From Myxococcales bacterium (GTDB lineage Bacteria; Myxococcota_A; Polyangia; Polyangiales; Houyiibacteriaceae), in NCBI GenBank assembly GCA_019637115.1, contig JAHBWH010000006.1, positions 1-64,000 of the forward strand: a DNA stretch of 64,000 nt, written 5' to 3'. Each line of letters begins with the position of its first letter. Within the stretch, counting starts at the first letter, position 1. Shown piece by piece: positions 45,390 to 55,092 of the stretch. The notes below the pieces were generated by a model that saw only the letters and a list, made by a program, of their open reading frames with translations, was not told the DNA's origin and searched no databases. A program made the translations under genes and the position numbers.

Positions 45390-45613
45390 GTTCGAACGCA
45401 CCCTCCCGCAGACGCATGACGCGTCTCCATCGCTCGAGGGGCGACCTATGGGCCGGAAGCGAGTGGAGACGTCGACCTCGCAGCATCTGCTCGTGCCCCT
45501 GGGTAGCACGGCGTCCCTGACGGCGGCCGTTACGTTTGCGTAAGCGGTGGCAGCGATGGCGGCCGATCGAGGTCGGAAGGCGGTCCGCGTCGGGTCGGCT
45601 GGGCGGCGGACAC

Positions 45614-45778
45614 GGATGGACGTGGATGGGCACGTGGATGGGGCACGTGGATGGGCACGCGGCGGATGGGCACGCGGATGGGCACGCGGATGGGCACGTG
45701 GATGGGCACGTGGATGGGCACGTGGATGGGCACGTGGATGGGCATGTGGATGGGCACGCGGATGGGCACGTGGATGTT
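45614..45778. repeat. GATGGGCACGTG 12-bp tandem repeat tract
   Basis: About 13 units of GATGGGCACGTG or GATGGGCACGCG. The unit contains CACGTG but not the TTCACGTGAA core of parS. Confidence 0.92.
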
Positions 45779-45809
45779 CAACGACGGTCACATCTCCGCG
45801 TGGCTCACG

Positions 45810-45914
45810 GCGGGGGAGGACACGCCCCGCCACACCGGCGCGGCGCTGATGGGGCTGTAACTTCGTGACAGCCCCATCGGCCTTGACGGTGTGGCGAGGC
45901 GTGTCCTCCCCCGC
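45810..45914. repeat. Long nested inverted repeat
   Basis: Outer arms of 28 bp (45810-45837 and 45887-45914) pair with one mismatch. Inner arms GATGGGGCTGT / ACAGCCCCATC (45848-45858, 45868-45878) pair perfectly around a 9-base loop. A cruciform or strong RNA hairpin is possible. The left arm's CGCCACACCGGCGCGGCGCTGATGG tract recurs inverted near 54872-54896. Confidence 0.9.
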
Positions 45915-46494
45915 CTATCCGTTCGAGCGACCATTGGGGCTCCCGGTGCCGCTCGCGGTCGGGGGGCTCGCGGTGCTCCCGGTGCCACGAGGCTCGGACG
46001 ACGGCCCTTCAATCCCGGATTCGTGCGAGCGACCTCGGACGGCGAAGCGCGCCCGGTGCCTTCGGACGTTTGATGGAGCTCACGCCGGGAAATAGAAAGT
46101 AGGGTCGGAGGCGAGCGCCGTCGTGAGCTGCGCGCACGACAGCGCTCGCAGGGTCCGACGCGCGCGAGGTGGCGACGTCCCGTGTCGAGCATGCGGCGGT
46201 CTTCCGGGACGGCGGATGGGCGTGCCCGCTCCGCGCTGAGGCGCTGCGCTCGGCAGGTGGGTCGAGCGCACGCGGACGGATGCGGACGGACGCGGACTCG
46301 GTCCATCTCCGGCTTCGGTTCCGTCTCCGACTTCGCAACGCTGCAGGTGCGCGCGCGTCCCCGTCCCCGTCCCCGTCCCCGTCCCCGTCCCCGTCCACGT
46401 GCGCGACCAGAAACGTGTCGGGGTTCCGCGGGGGATAGACGGGACAGTTCTCACCACAGCGAAGCGCTGGTTTCTTTCGGCGAGTCGGACACAG

Positions 46495-46715
46495 ACTCGG
46501 ACTCCAAGTCGGACTCCGACTCGGAGGCGGACTCGGAGGCGGACTCGGAGGCGGACTCGGAGGCGGACTCGGAGGCGGACTCGGAGGCGGACTCGGAGGC
46601 GGACCGGAGGCGGACTGGAGGCGGACTCGGAGGCGGACTCGGAGGCGGACTCGGAGGCGGACTCGGAGGCGGACTCGGAGGCGGACTCGGAGGCGGACTC
46701 GGAGGCGGACGCGGA
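46495..46715. repeat. GGAGGCGGACTC 6/12-bp tandem repeat tract
   Basis: About 18 twelve-base units of GGAGGCGGACTC, preceded by GGACTC hexamers. Same hexamer family as the tract at 52095-52320. Confidence 0.93.
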
Positions 46716-46923: not shown

Positions 46924-46929
46924 TTCGGG

Positions 46930-47002
46930 TGGAGCTGAGGGGGATCGAACCCCTGACCTCTAGAGTGCGATTCTAGCGCTCTCCCAGCTGAGCTACAGCC
47001 CC
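46930..47002 (-). tRNA. tRNA-Ala (anticodon CGC)
   Basis: 73 nt, minus strand. Acceptor GGGGCTG pairs with CAGCTCC, discriminator A. D-arm GTAGCTCAGCTGGGAGAGC, anticodon stem CTAGA/TCTAG with loop ATCGCAC (anticodon CGC, reads GCG), T-arm with GGTTCGATCC. The 3' CCA is not encoded. GCG is a major alanine codon in this DNA. Confidence 0.95.
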
Positions 47003-51923: not shown

Positions 51924-51974
51924 CGGGCGTGGTGTAGCAGGTCGACCTGGGTCGGGCCCGAGTCGACGATGTCG

Positions 51975-51990
51975 CGTTTCACGTGAAACG
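51975..51990. other. parS site 1 (ParB binding)
   Basis: Perfect 16-bp palindrome CGTTTCACGTGAAACG, holding the widely conserved parS core GTTTCACGTGAAAC. ParB/Spo0J binds this and spreads to organise origin segregation. Lies just upstream of bioF. Confidence 0.88.
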
Positions 51991-52094
51991 TCGGGGAGGC
52001 AGGGAGAAATGTGCCCGAGATGATGGTCACCGCCTGGCCCCGACGGCAAAAGGGCGGACTGCGCCTTCTTCTTCGGCACAGCCCCCTTGGCCCT

Positions 52095-52320
52095 GCAGTC
52101 GGACCCGGACCCGGACTCGACCCGGACTCGGACTCGGCCCCGGCTCGGACTCTGCCCCGACTCGGACCCTGCCCCGACCCTGCCCCGACCCTGCCCAGAC
52201 TCTGCCCCGACTCGGACTCGGACTCGGACTCGGACTCGGACTCGGACTCGGACTCGGACTTGGACTCGGACTCGGACTCGAACTCGGACTCGGACTCGGA
52301 CTCGGACTCGGACTCGGAGA
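52095..52320. repeat. GGACTC hexamer tandem repeat tract
   Basis: Starts with mixed GGACCC / GGACTC / CTGCCCCGA units, then becomes a nearly pure run of about 20 GGACTC hexamers, all in register. Confidence 0.93.
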
Positions 52321-52474
52321 CGGAGGCTGACCTCAGCAAGAGTCCTCCCGAGATCCGTCGTCAGGGTCCTCGGGAGCTCGGGAGCCCCCCCAAGCGAGCA
52401 CCTTCGCGGGGGCACAGCCTGGTGACACACTCGCGCAGGAGGGTCGGCAAGGACCCCTCGACGTGGCGAGGGTG

Positions 52475-52490
52475 CGTTTCACGTGAAACG
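52475..52490. other. parS site 2
   Basis: Same perfect 16-bp palindrome, with flanks GAGGGTG and GTCGCCAGG shared with site 3. Confidence 0.88.
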
Positions 52491-52587
52491 GTCGCCAGGC
52501 TCGGCAACCTCGCCAGGAGAGCTTCGGCAAGAACCCAAAGGGCTTCGGCAAGAACGCTGCATCCTTCGCGGGCCTCCCCGAGGGTGC

Positions 52588-52603
52588 GTTTCACGTGAAA
52601 CGG
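52588..52603. other. parS site 3
   Basis: Same 16-bp palindrome, 113 bp after site 2. The shared flanks show the two arose by local duplication. Confidence 0.88.
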
Positions 52604-52612
52604 TCGCCAGGA

Positions 52613-52895
52613 GGGCTCGGCAACCTCGCCAGGAGAGCTCCGGCAAGAACCCTGGATCCTTAGCGGGCCTCCGAGCACGCATCTGGCCCCCCCTTCCGTC
52701 CGGGGCCGCCTCCTCCTGGCCCGGGTCCGCTTCCGGTCCTCCTGGCCAGGAGCTTCGGAAAGAATCCTGGATACTTCGTCGCAGCTTCGGGAGGCTCGGC
52801 AACCTCGCCAGGAGAGCTCCGGCAAGAACCCTGGATCCTTAGCGGGCCTCCGAGCACGCATCTGGCCCCCCTTCCGTCCGGGGAAGCCTCCTTCT
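52613..52895. repeat. 178-bp higher-order direct repeat
   Basis: About 90 bp from GGCTCGGCAACCTCGCCAGG on (52615) recur almost unchanged from 52793 (period 178 bp). Each includes one near-palindromic element and the CTTCCGTCCGGGG segment. Confidence 0.9.
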
Positions 52896-53819
52896 GGCCG
52901 GGTCCGCTTCCGGTCCTCCTGGCCGAGAGCTTCGGAAAGAATCCCGGATCCTTCGTCGCAGCTTCGGATGTCTCGTCGGGCCCTCGGAAGCCTGACCCGG
53001 ACCTTCGGAAAGAATCCTGGATCCTTCGTCGCAGCTCATCGAAAGAATCCTGGATCCTTCGTCGCAGCTCATCCTTCGTCGCAGCTTCGGATGCCCGTCC
53101 CGGTCTGCTTCCTTCTGGACGGGTCCGCTTCCGGTCCTCTTCGCCGAGCGGTAGCGATGAAGGATCCAAGGACTCTTGCTGACCGTGGGCGCCAACCTCG
53201 CCAGGAGAGGTTCGGCAAGAACCCCAGGAGAGGTTCGCCAAGGACCGTGGATCCTTCGCGGGCCTCCAAGTACGCATCTGGGCCCCCTTCGGTTCCGTCC
53301 GGGTCTGCTTCCTTCTGGGCGGGTCCGCTTCCGGTCCTCCTGGCCAGGAGCTTCGGAAAGAATCCAGGATCCTTCGTCGCGGGTTCGGATGCCTCGTCGG
53401 GCCGTCCGAAGCCCGAGCGCTAGCGATGAAGGATCCAGGACTCTTGCTCACCGCGGGCGCGAACGGACCCCCGACTAGCCCCGGCAAGAGTCCGCGGTCG
53501 TTTCCGTTCCCCCAGGCCGTCGGGGGCTCCGCGGCAAGTATCCTGGATCCCTTGTCGCGCCCCTCCCGTCGGGGGCTCCGCGGCAAGAATCCTGGATCCC
53601 TTCTCGCGCCCCTCGATCCCTTGTCGCGCCCCTCCCGGTCCCTCGTCGGGGGCTCCGCGGCAAGAATCTCGGGGGCTCCGCGGCAAGAATCCTGGATGCG
53701 TCGTCGGGGCACTCGGGAGCCCGTCCTCGAGCCCCGGCTGAGTCCCGGCTAAAGTCGTGGTTCCTCGCAAGACCGTGCCTCACGAAGCAAGATCCTGGGT
53801 CGCTCGCCGCTGCGAGGTG

Positions 53820-53835
53820 CGTTTCACGTGAAACG
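53820..53835. other. parS site 4
   Basis: Same 16-bp palindrome with flank GCGAGGTG and GTCCCG, about 1.2 kb beyond site 3, on the far side of the repeat array. Confidence 0.88.
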
Positions 53836-53879
53836 GTCCCGCCCAGGTTTGGCAAGAATCCTCGAGCCTTCATCCGGGG

Positions 53880-55060
53880 CCTCTGGGTCCGCTTCCGCGT
53901 CCCCTTCCAAGTCCGTGCCCGCGTCCCCTCCTTCCGGGTCCGGGTCCGCTTCCGGGTCCACATCTGCGTGCGTCCGGGTCCGCGTCCGCGCGTCCGCGCG
54001 TCCGGGTCCGCGGCGTCCCCTTCCGCGTCCCCTTCGAGGTCGGGTCCGCGTCCGCTTCCTTCTGGGTCCGCTTCCGCGTCCGCCTCCGGGTCGGGTCCGT
54101 GTCCTTGTTGTTCGTCTCCGGGTCGGGTCCAAACCTCGCACGCGCACGCGCACGTGGACGACGTGGACGTGGACGTCCGCGTCGATGTGGACGGGCGCGC
54201 ATCAGCAGCGTTGCGGACACGGAACCGAAGTCGGACACGGAGCCGAGTCGCGTCCGTCCAGGCTTGCGTCCATTTGGCTCCGCGTCCGTCCGGGACCGCG
54301 TTGCGTCGGAGCCCAGGAGGTTTGGCAAGAATCCTGGAGCCTCATCCGGGCCCTCTGGTCCGCTTCCGCGTCCCCGTCCGCCGCGTCCCCTTCCGAGTCG
54401 GCGCCCGTCCGCTTCCGGGTCCGCTTCCGCTTCCGGGTCCGCTTCCGGGTCCGCGTCCGCTTCCGGGTCCGCTTCCGGGTCCGCTTCCGGGTCCGCTTCC
54501 AGGTCCGCTTCCGGCTTCCGCGTCCGAGTCCGCGTTCGCGTCCGAGTCGCGCGACGAAGCAGCGCTTCTCCATGGAGAGGGCTCTCGCGCCTCTACCCCC
54601 CTGCGAAACGCCGACGGACCTTCCTGGTCGCGCACGCGCACGCGCACGCGGACGTGGAGGTGGACGGGCACATGGACGTGGACGGGCACGCCCCGGGCAC
54701 GCGCGCGTACCTTCCGCGTAGAACCGAGGCCGGGGCATGGACCGAGTCCGCGTCCGCCGCGTCCATCCGCGCCGACCGCCTGTCGACCCACGTGCCGAGC
54801 GCAGCGCCTCAGCGCGGAGCGGGCAGGCCCGTCCTCCGCTCCGGAAGACCGCCGCACGCTCGACGTGGCTCCATCAGCGCCGCGCCGGTGTGGCGGTTCC
54901 CCGCCGTGAGCCACACGCCGCATTGGTCCGGGGAGCGTGTCCTCCCTGCCATGTCCATCACCGCCGCGCTGGCGTCCTCCCCCCAGAGGCGAAGCATCAG
55001 CCCCGCATCGGTGTCCCGGGACTCCCACGCCCTAAGCCACGCGAAGATCATGCTTCGGTG
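53880..55060. repeat. Inverted copy of the 45.8-46.7 kb dispersed element
   Basis: Read on the minus strand, the same modules appear in the same order as at 45795-46715: GTGGCTCACGGCGGGG units, GTCGAGCGTGCGGCGGTCTT, ACGCGGACTCGGTCCAT, GTGCGCGACCAG, AAGCGCTG, then hexamers (here AAGCGGACCCGG). A second partial copy of the middle module lies at 54120-54250. No open frame or terminal repeats typical of an IS. Confidence 0.75.
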
Positions 55061-55092
55061 TCCACATCCCATGCGCGGACTTGGACTTGGGC

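Follow-up and report, generated by a model that had tools for sequence, protein, structure and literature searches.

An imperfect palindrome, here called M1, lies in the window (the whole analysed stretch of 64,000 nucleotides from a Myxococcales bacterium) between a leftward-read gene with a weak TSP3-repeat match below the cut-off and, on the right side, a tRNA-Ala gene (46928-47002, minus strand) and an acyl-CoA dehydrogenase gene. Its outer arms (45809-45837 and 45887-45915) comprise 29 nt each with one mismatch, and its inner arms (45848-45858 and 45868-45878) are 11 bp long and perfect. The sequence-only reading had placed the palindrome at 45810-45914 with 28-bp outer arms; the palindrome itself, the single mismatch and the perfect inner arms were borne out, and the outer arms proved to be one base longer on each side. 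Folding joined inner and outer arms through a weaker-pairing middle into one continuous hairpin and not a branched nest. The claim that such arms are unlikely by chance held: the best ungapped inverted-repeat score (span up to 140 nt) in the 2-kb region around M1 was 26, a value that none of 40 dinucleotide shuffles approached (12 at most), and the z-scores of the fold were -10.6 as RNA (131 nt) and -13.5 as DNA (116 nt). A listing of inverted repeats in the window, under the settings used, gave 19, of which M1 had the longest arms (36 nt). Further modules and tandem arrays adjoin the palindrome (Table 1).

Table 1. Features of the repeat and its surroundings in the window
Feature	Position	Strand	Basis
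Tandem array (ACGTGGATGGGC)n, locus-specific, left of element	45620-45776		TRF; other copies adjoin arrays with different units
Conserved left border (ACATCTCCGCGTGGCTCAC)	45790-45808	+	CTCCGCGTGGC in flanks, alignment variants
M1: 107-nt imperfect palindrome, single long hairpin of about 48 bp	45809-45915	+	Folding, arm alignment, 11 complete own-genome copies
M2: core segment with greater variation	45916-46097	+	Mean pairwise identity 0.84 (45916-46096)
M3: second hairpin, GCGAGCGC-C-GTCGTG / CACGAC-A-GCGCTCGC, nine-base loop region	46102-46161	+	Fold, identity, model matches, stem compensation; common to congener G001
M4: moderately conserved segment	46159-46203	+	Identity 0.89
M5: conserved block, starting with CCCGCTCCGCGCTGAGGCGCTGCGC	46225-46262	+	Identity 0.92 (46225-46249, 0.985)
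Tail module (CCGCAACGCTGCAGG ... GTGCGCGACCAGAAACG ... CAGCGAAGCGCTG) with internal arrays	46296-46500	+	Own-genome BLAST
Tandem array (CGTCCC)n within tail module	46356-46400		TRF
Tandem array (GACTCGGAGGCG)n right of element	46518-46715		TRF
Deletion derivative: palindrome-query positions 23-51 beside core positions 260-336	54788-54896	-	BLAST with M1 and core queries

The left border showed variants in the alignment of copies, and the string CTCCGCGTGGC was present in 9 of 28 left flanks, in 7 of those 9 exactly at the border. A BLAST search of the host genome with the tail module gave 73 rows, including many short, array-like ones. The recurrence of part of one arm near 54.88 kb, noticed from the sequence alone, is real and represents a deletion-shortened relative: a palindrome part on the minus strand (54868-54896, 97% to query positions 23-51) sits beside a core fragment (54788-54864), with a piece of the tail module nearby (54540-54747). 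Positions 51924-55092 of the window contain no predicted gene; within them, at 53000-53700, lies another intergenic repeat cluster with direct and inverted copies of GCAAGAATCCTGGATCCCTTCTCGC-like units.

The host genome (G000; 8,880,847 bases in 434 contigs, 98% complete) was searched with M1 (116-nt query) and with the core of about 340 nt to its right (336-nt query). M1 yielded at least 76 rows, many of which arise from a single copy whose arms match on either strand, and at least 11 complete copies with 89-100% identity (ten with 97-100%, one with 89%), besides partial ones; these copy counts are lower bounds from the best 40 of 86 candidates. The core yielded at least 41 rows, at least 27 of them near full length (270 nt or more; 86-100% identity), among the best 40 of 402 candidates. 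In all 11 complete copies of M1 the core follows on the right. In the copies found with the core, M1 was either whole, truncated where a contig stops or lost by deletion; no full-length M1 with less than 89% identity was seen among them. Three copies (contigs C417, C431 and C159) begin at core position 165-173, just before M3, and the modules are therefore partly independent. Altogether, matches to the two queries were spread over 52 contigs (weak rows included).

Many copies coincide with the ends of contigs. The left part of M1 holds the ends of eleven contigs (C385, C368, C97, C282, C144, C50, C11, C64, C39, C27 and C405) and its right part those of five (C38, C190, C209, C430 and C375, found with the M1 query). 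Another seven, found with the core query, break off somewhere from the final bases of M1 to about 30 nt on its right, or left of that point (C263, C214, C256, C384, C70, C205 and C334). As 23 of the 868 contig ends thus lie in M1 or within about 30 nt of it, assembly gaps probably divide about a dozen further copies, which would bring the estimated total to roughly two dozen.

Some copies are rearranged. At L057:2991-3139, L074:2933-3029 and L082:1-180 the left border and first arm are tandemly repeated and a second arm is either absent or not visible, a pattern that reflects either a real rearrangement or a misassembly of the palindrome. In a scrambled copy (L101:3050-3130, contig C418) the apex half stands ahead of the arm half, an order that might stem from cruciform breakage or template switching. 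Apart from this element, the host genome carries copies of a classic MITE-like family (L044:11-181 and 2646-2806, L093:4790-4962; contigs C422 and C334), about 160-175 nt long and bearing terminal inverted repeats CCTAGTGCCCCCAACCCGAAGTTCGTTCCGGG...; the repeats of one copy are perfect over 32 bp, those of another have a single mismatch in 34 and those of the third are degenerate, and their ends are of the CTAG type.

The mean pairwise identity over the 11 complete copies was 0.52 left of the element (45775-45804), 0.94 in the left arm, 0.98 in the centre and 0.92 in the right arm of M1 (values biased upward by the use of M1 itself as the query), 0.975 in M3, 0.68 in the spacer at 46204-46224 and 0.56 beyond M5 (for the other modules see Table 1). 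M1, M3 and M5 thus form islands of conservation, and the two hairpins differ less from copy to copy than do the regions that separate and surround them. Within M1, 98.1% of the cells of 48 pairs were paired and none of the 48 pairs was changed on both sides, so that its variation speaks neither for nor against selection on pairing; the same mismatched A was found in the right arm of 7 of the 11 copies.

For M3, a comparison with a congener was possible (G001, the one congener compared; 89% complete). The middle stem reads CGC/GCG in all 28 pattern-matched hairpins of the host genome; when aligned by structure, with a one-base bulge in the congener, it reads TCG/CGA with all three pairs kept in 9 of 15 congener hairpins, with two of the three kept in 5 and one in 1. 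From these sequences the middle stem appears to be compensated between the two species, which together make one evolutionary contrast. The other M3 stems showed no covariation when pairs were counted without the middle stem. Both bases of the C.A mismatch beside the middle stem were invariant in 15 aligned rows; this mismatch is part of the patterns used for counting M3, and the congener members of the 15 rows were found with a pattern that leaves both bases free.

Among the genomes searched, M1 is limited to one species and M3 to one genus. The M1 apex with up to three mismatches occurred 15 times in the host genome and in none of 176 other genomes, and the 116-nt query gave only matches of 24-29 nt in three genomes outside the host among 57 relatives including the host (best 15 candidates at most per genome). 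The core query found short matches in 12 of the 57 relatives (the host included), mostly in the congener at M3. A shorter apex pattern had no match in GTDB r220 contigs or in viral contigs, and the 471-nt region had none in plasmids or phages, collections that may omit the window's own genome. The exact M3 motif was found 28 times in the host, 13 times in the congener and in none of 181 further genomes searched from the order; a covariance model of M3 recovered at least 30 and at least 29 hairpins, respectively (32 candidates scored per genome), and with strict filters none in 175 further genomes of the order. In a public collection the exact motif occurred in five records of a Myxococcota MAG (Prado145), with coordinates matching the congener, and at one place each in two Streptomyces, one Nocardioides and one Sumerlaeota record, which we take as chance matches. 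In the congener M3 stands in tandem arrays (L063:2380-2630, with a 49-nt period, and C596:12959-13449).

None of the 52 repeat segments overlapped a gene predicted by a codon-score gene caller at two score thresholds, i.e., all are intergenic (the count disregards open reading frames whose codon diversity is very low, e.g., 45651-45860, which runs through the array into M1). A protein-coding reading was rejected, as the variable columns showed no codon periodicity (46/42/40 by codon position) and the frame that is open in most copies has stops in others. For 25 segments both neighbouring genes were visible (10 gaps convergent, 6 co-directional tandem, 3 anti-directional tandem and 6 divergent), and for 36 the upstream gene was visible (21 co-directional, 15 oppositely directed). 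Tandem arrays (period up to 30, at least four copies) were present in 24 of 25 element gaps versus 17 of 94 other intergenic gaps of at least 60 nt in the loci examined, a contrast inflated by the greater length of the element gaps (median 1128 versus 253 nt); among gaps of at least 400 nt they were present in 22 of 22 with and 7 of 24 without the element. The array unit varies from copy to copy, and the arrays are private to each locus.

A gene matching PF05635 (S23/IVP-like, four-helix-bundle) lies just downstream of three copies (L048:4331, L095:2373 and L100:2125; contigs C335, C24 and C15), and inverted sequences of 18 nt (GGGGGATTCGAGCCTGGG) flank it. At about 46755 in the window, what may be a remnant of its end can be made out by eye. 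PF05635 had seven matches in the host genome (five over the cut-off), and the S23/four-helix-bundle gene was rejected as a constant partner, since just three of them adjoin elements. No true empty site was seen: the tRNA-Ala/acyl-CoA dehydrogenase pair of the congener was the sole comparable one, and it is rearranged. The interval between these two genes lacks the element in the congener, the tRNA is inverted there, and the element of the window lies on the other side of the tRNA.

Many copies with dissimilar left flanks, intergenic sites, internal deletions, conserved hairpin islands and locus-private arrays were observed directly. We regard M1, with a probability of roughly 70%, as the left hairpin module of a mosaic repeat family that is non-coding, is dispersed over intergenic sites and spread non-autonomously via recognition of its hairpins; the repeat is probably a young, genus-limited mosaic of the BOX/ERIC/BIME kind. 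On this view, the spread of the element would depend on a trans-acting enzyme, or on replication and repair proteins, recognising its hairpins either as single-stranded DNA or as a cruciform; copies would decay afterwards by deletion, and replication stalling at the hairpins may promote the making or expansion of the arrays next to them. If the element is transcribed, it might act on neighbouring genes through protection of the 3' end or attenuation, a hypothetical effect that would be secondary. The search for a mobiliser covered the Pfam family PF01797 (Y1/RAYT transposase) alone, which had no match in the host or the congener; as a control, it matched in 5 of 14 genomes and in a wider search in 21 of 37 at an E-value of 0.001 or better (19 over the cut-off). 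A RAYT-driven REP was accordingly rejected. A more novel reading, a new class of hairpin-directed element in Myxococcota that is copied without Y1/RAYT and seeds a private array at each site by hairpin-primed or template-switching synthesis, appears unlikely.

Several results count against the preferred reading: the PF01797 search gave no mobiliser, the 12-nt scan gave no terminal inverted repeats or flanking duplications common to the copies, no true empty site was seen, and neither M1 nor the M3 helices counted without the middle stem showed compensatory change. Gene conversion or segmental duplication could also have been the route of spread. Copying by recombination or gene conversion between arrays and repeats, with no transposition enzyme involved, is possible but somewhat improbable: it agrees with the mosaic internal deletions and rearranged copies, with the association with simple arrays and with the S23-like gene downstream of three copies, so that longer segments may have been duplicated, but a distribution over so many contigs with dissimilar left flanks would be hard to reach by conversion alone. 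The suggestion in the sequence-only reading that the palindrome is a recombination site found no support in this analysis. Its third suggestion, a miniature element, fits best: other copies, whose absence that reading counted towards a refutation, exist in at least 11 complete examples. M1 as a stand-alone MITE was, all the same, rejected on account of the core attached in every one of them, which means that M1 is no independent insert. A classical MITE, with M1 alone inserted and moved by a DDE transposase recognising the arms, is for this reason very improbable, even though the size and the near-perfect inverted arms would suit it and a separate family with the expected anatomy exists in the same genome (terminal repeats of 32-34 bp with at most one mismatch). 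Shared terminal repeats and long duplications were likewise lacking: between 154 nt on the left and 1 kb on the right, no 12-nt terminal inverted match was shared in 10 of the 11 copies (the 11th gave a repetitive, GC/CG array-like one), and no flanking duplication was detected as a shared 12-mer in 10 of the 11 (an array-like match in the 11th), the borders being blurred by arrays.

Could the copies instead be a multicopy structured RNA, or a hairpin of the 3'-UTR or terminator type, kept under host selection and stabilising or ending transcripts? We consider this improbable. The conserved hairpin islands, the stable fold of M1, the apparent compensation in the M3 stem between species, the co-directional upstream genes and the convergent gaps would all be in line with it; the oppositely directed upstream genes and divergent gaps, and the confinement of M1 to one species among those searched, argue against it. 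Furthermore, M1 is not followed by a T tract, on which ground a canonical intrinsic terminator there was rejected, the sole terminator-like site in 45600-46500 being at 46457, and no sigma-70-like promoter was found in the same interval (one promoter type scanned). At the gathering threshold Rfam identified tRNA-Ala alone in the window and nothing at M1, where permissive matches were to microRNA models far below their gathering scores. The regulatory RNA hairpin proposed from the sequence alone is thus not sustained, given the mixed orientation and the lack of an Rfam match above the gathering score. An assembly artefact, in which palindromic reads were folded onto themselves, might be suspected from the contig ends in or near M1 and from the odd tandem half-palindromes, but it is hardly credible: the 11 complete copies lie wholly within contigs and have different flanks, and their arms are non-identical, with the recurrent mismatched A in the right arm.

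The element is dispersed, intergenic, stem-loop forming, non-coding and modular, as are the repeats of the BOX-, ERIC- and BIME-like descriptive class, in which we place it. ERIC (or IRU) is an imperfect palindrome of about 127 bp present in tens of copies in enterobacteria. By description the element resembles it as a single long imperfect palindrome in intergenic regions in tens of copies, but the complete palindrome is here always joined to the core, and the lineage differs. ERIC/IRU are taken to be MITEs in PMC3116915. BOX of Streptococcus pneumoniae, as treated in PMC3049150, is likewise a dispersed modular stem-loop repeat with a variable-number tandem part that proliferated in one lineage; an insertion sequence with similar terminal repeats has been proposed for BOX, whereas none was found here and the arrays are locus-private; the likeness is one of description. 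REP/REPIN-RAYT systems (PMC3733652, PMC3116915) are defined by a palindrome of 20-40 bp, a terminal unpaired GTAG or CGTC tag and a RAYT (Y1 transposase) gene. M3 is similar to REP/BIME as a short hairpin with a mismatch, tandem in the congener and part of a mosaic organisation; AGTA(G) precedes it in 22 of 28 host copies, and GTAG occurs within 15 nt upstream in none of 17 congener hairpins. The absence of a Y1/RAYT match in both genomes and the much greater length of M1 set the element apart from REP/REPIN. MITEs, again from PMC3049150, are short, non-coding, base-paired and present in many copies, features that the element shares, and have terminal inverted repeats, target-site duplications and a high AT content; here no such repeats or duplications were detected in the 12-nt scan, and the element is not AT-rich.

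Judged by title or abstract, none of the papers listed in searches of open-licence full texts, outside of which most subscription journals lie, deals with this family, and within that literature the element adds a lineage-specific mosaic hairpin repeat to the myxobacteria. The M1 repeat accounts for a small share of the fragmentation of the assembly (23 of 868 contig ends). Between two congeneric genomes, M3 was kept with apparently compensated changes, with M1 confined to one species among those searched. In this lineage the hairpin copies are accompanied by private microsatellite-like arrays, and if the new class of hairpin-directed element were real, hairpin-primed or template-switching synthesis would create both the copy and its adjoining array.
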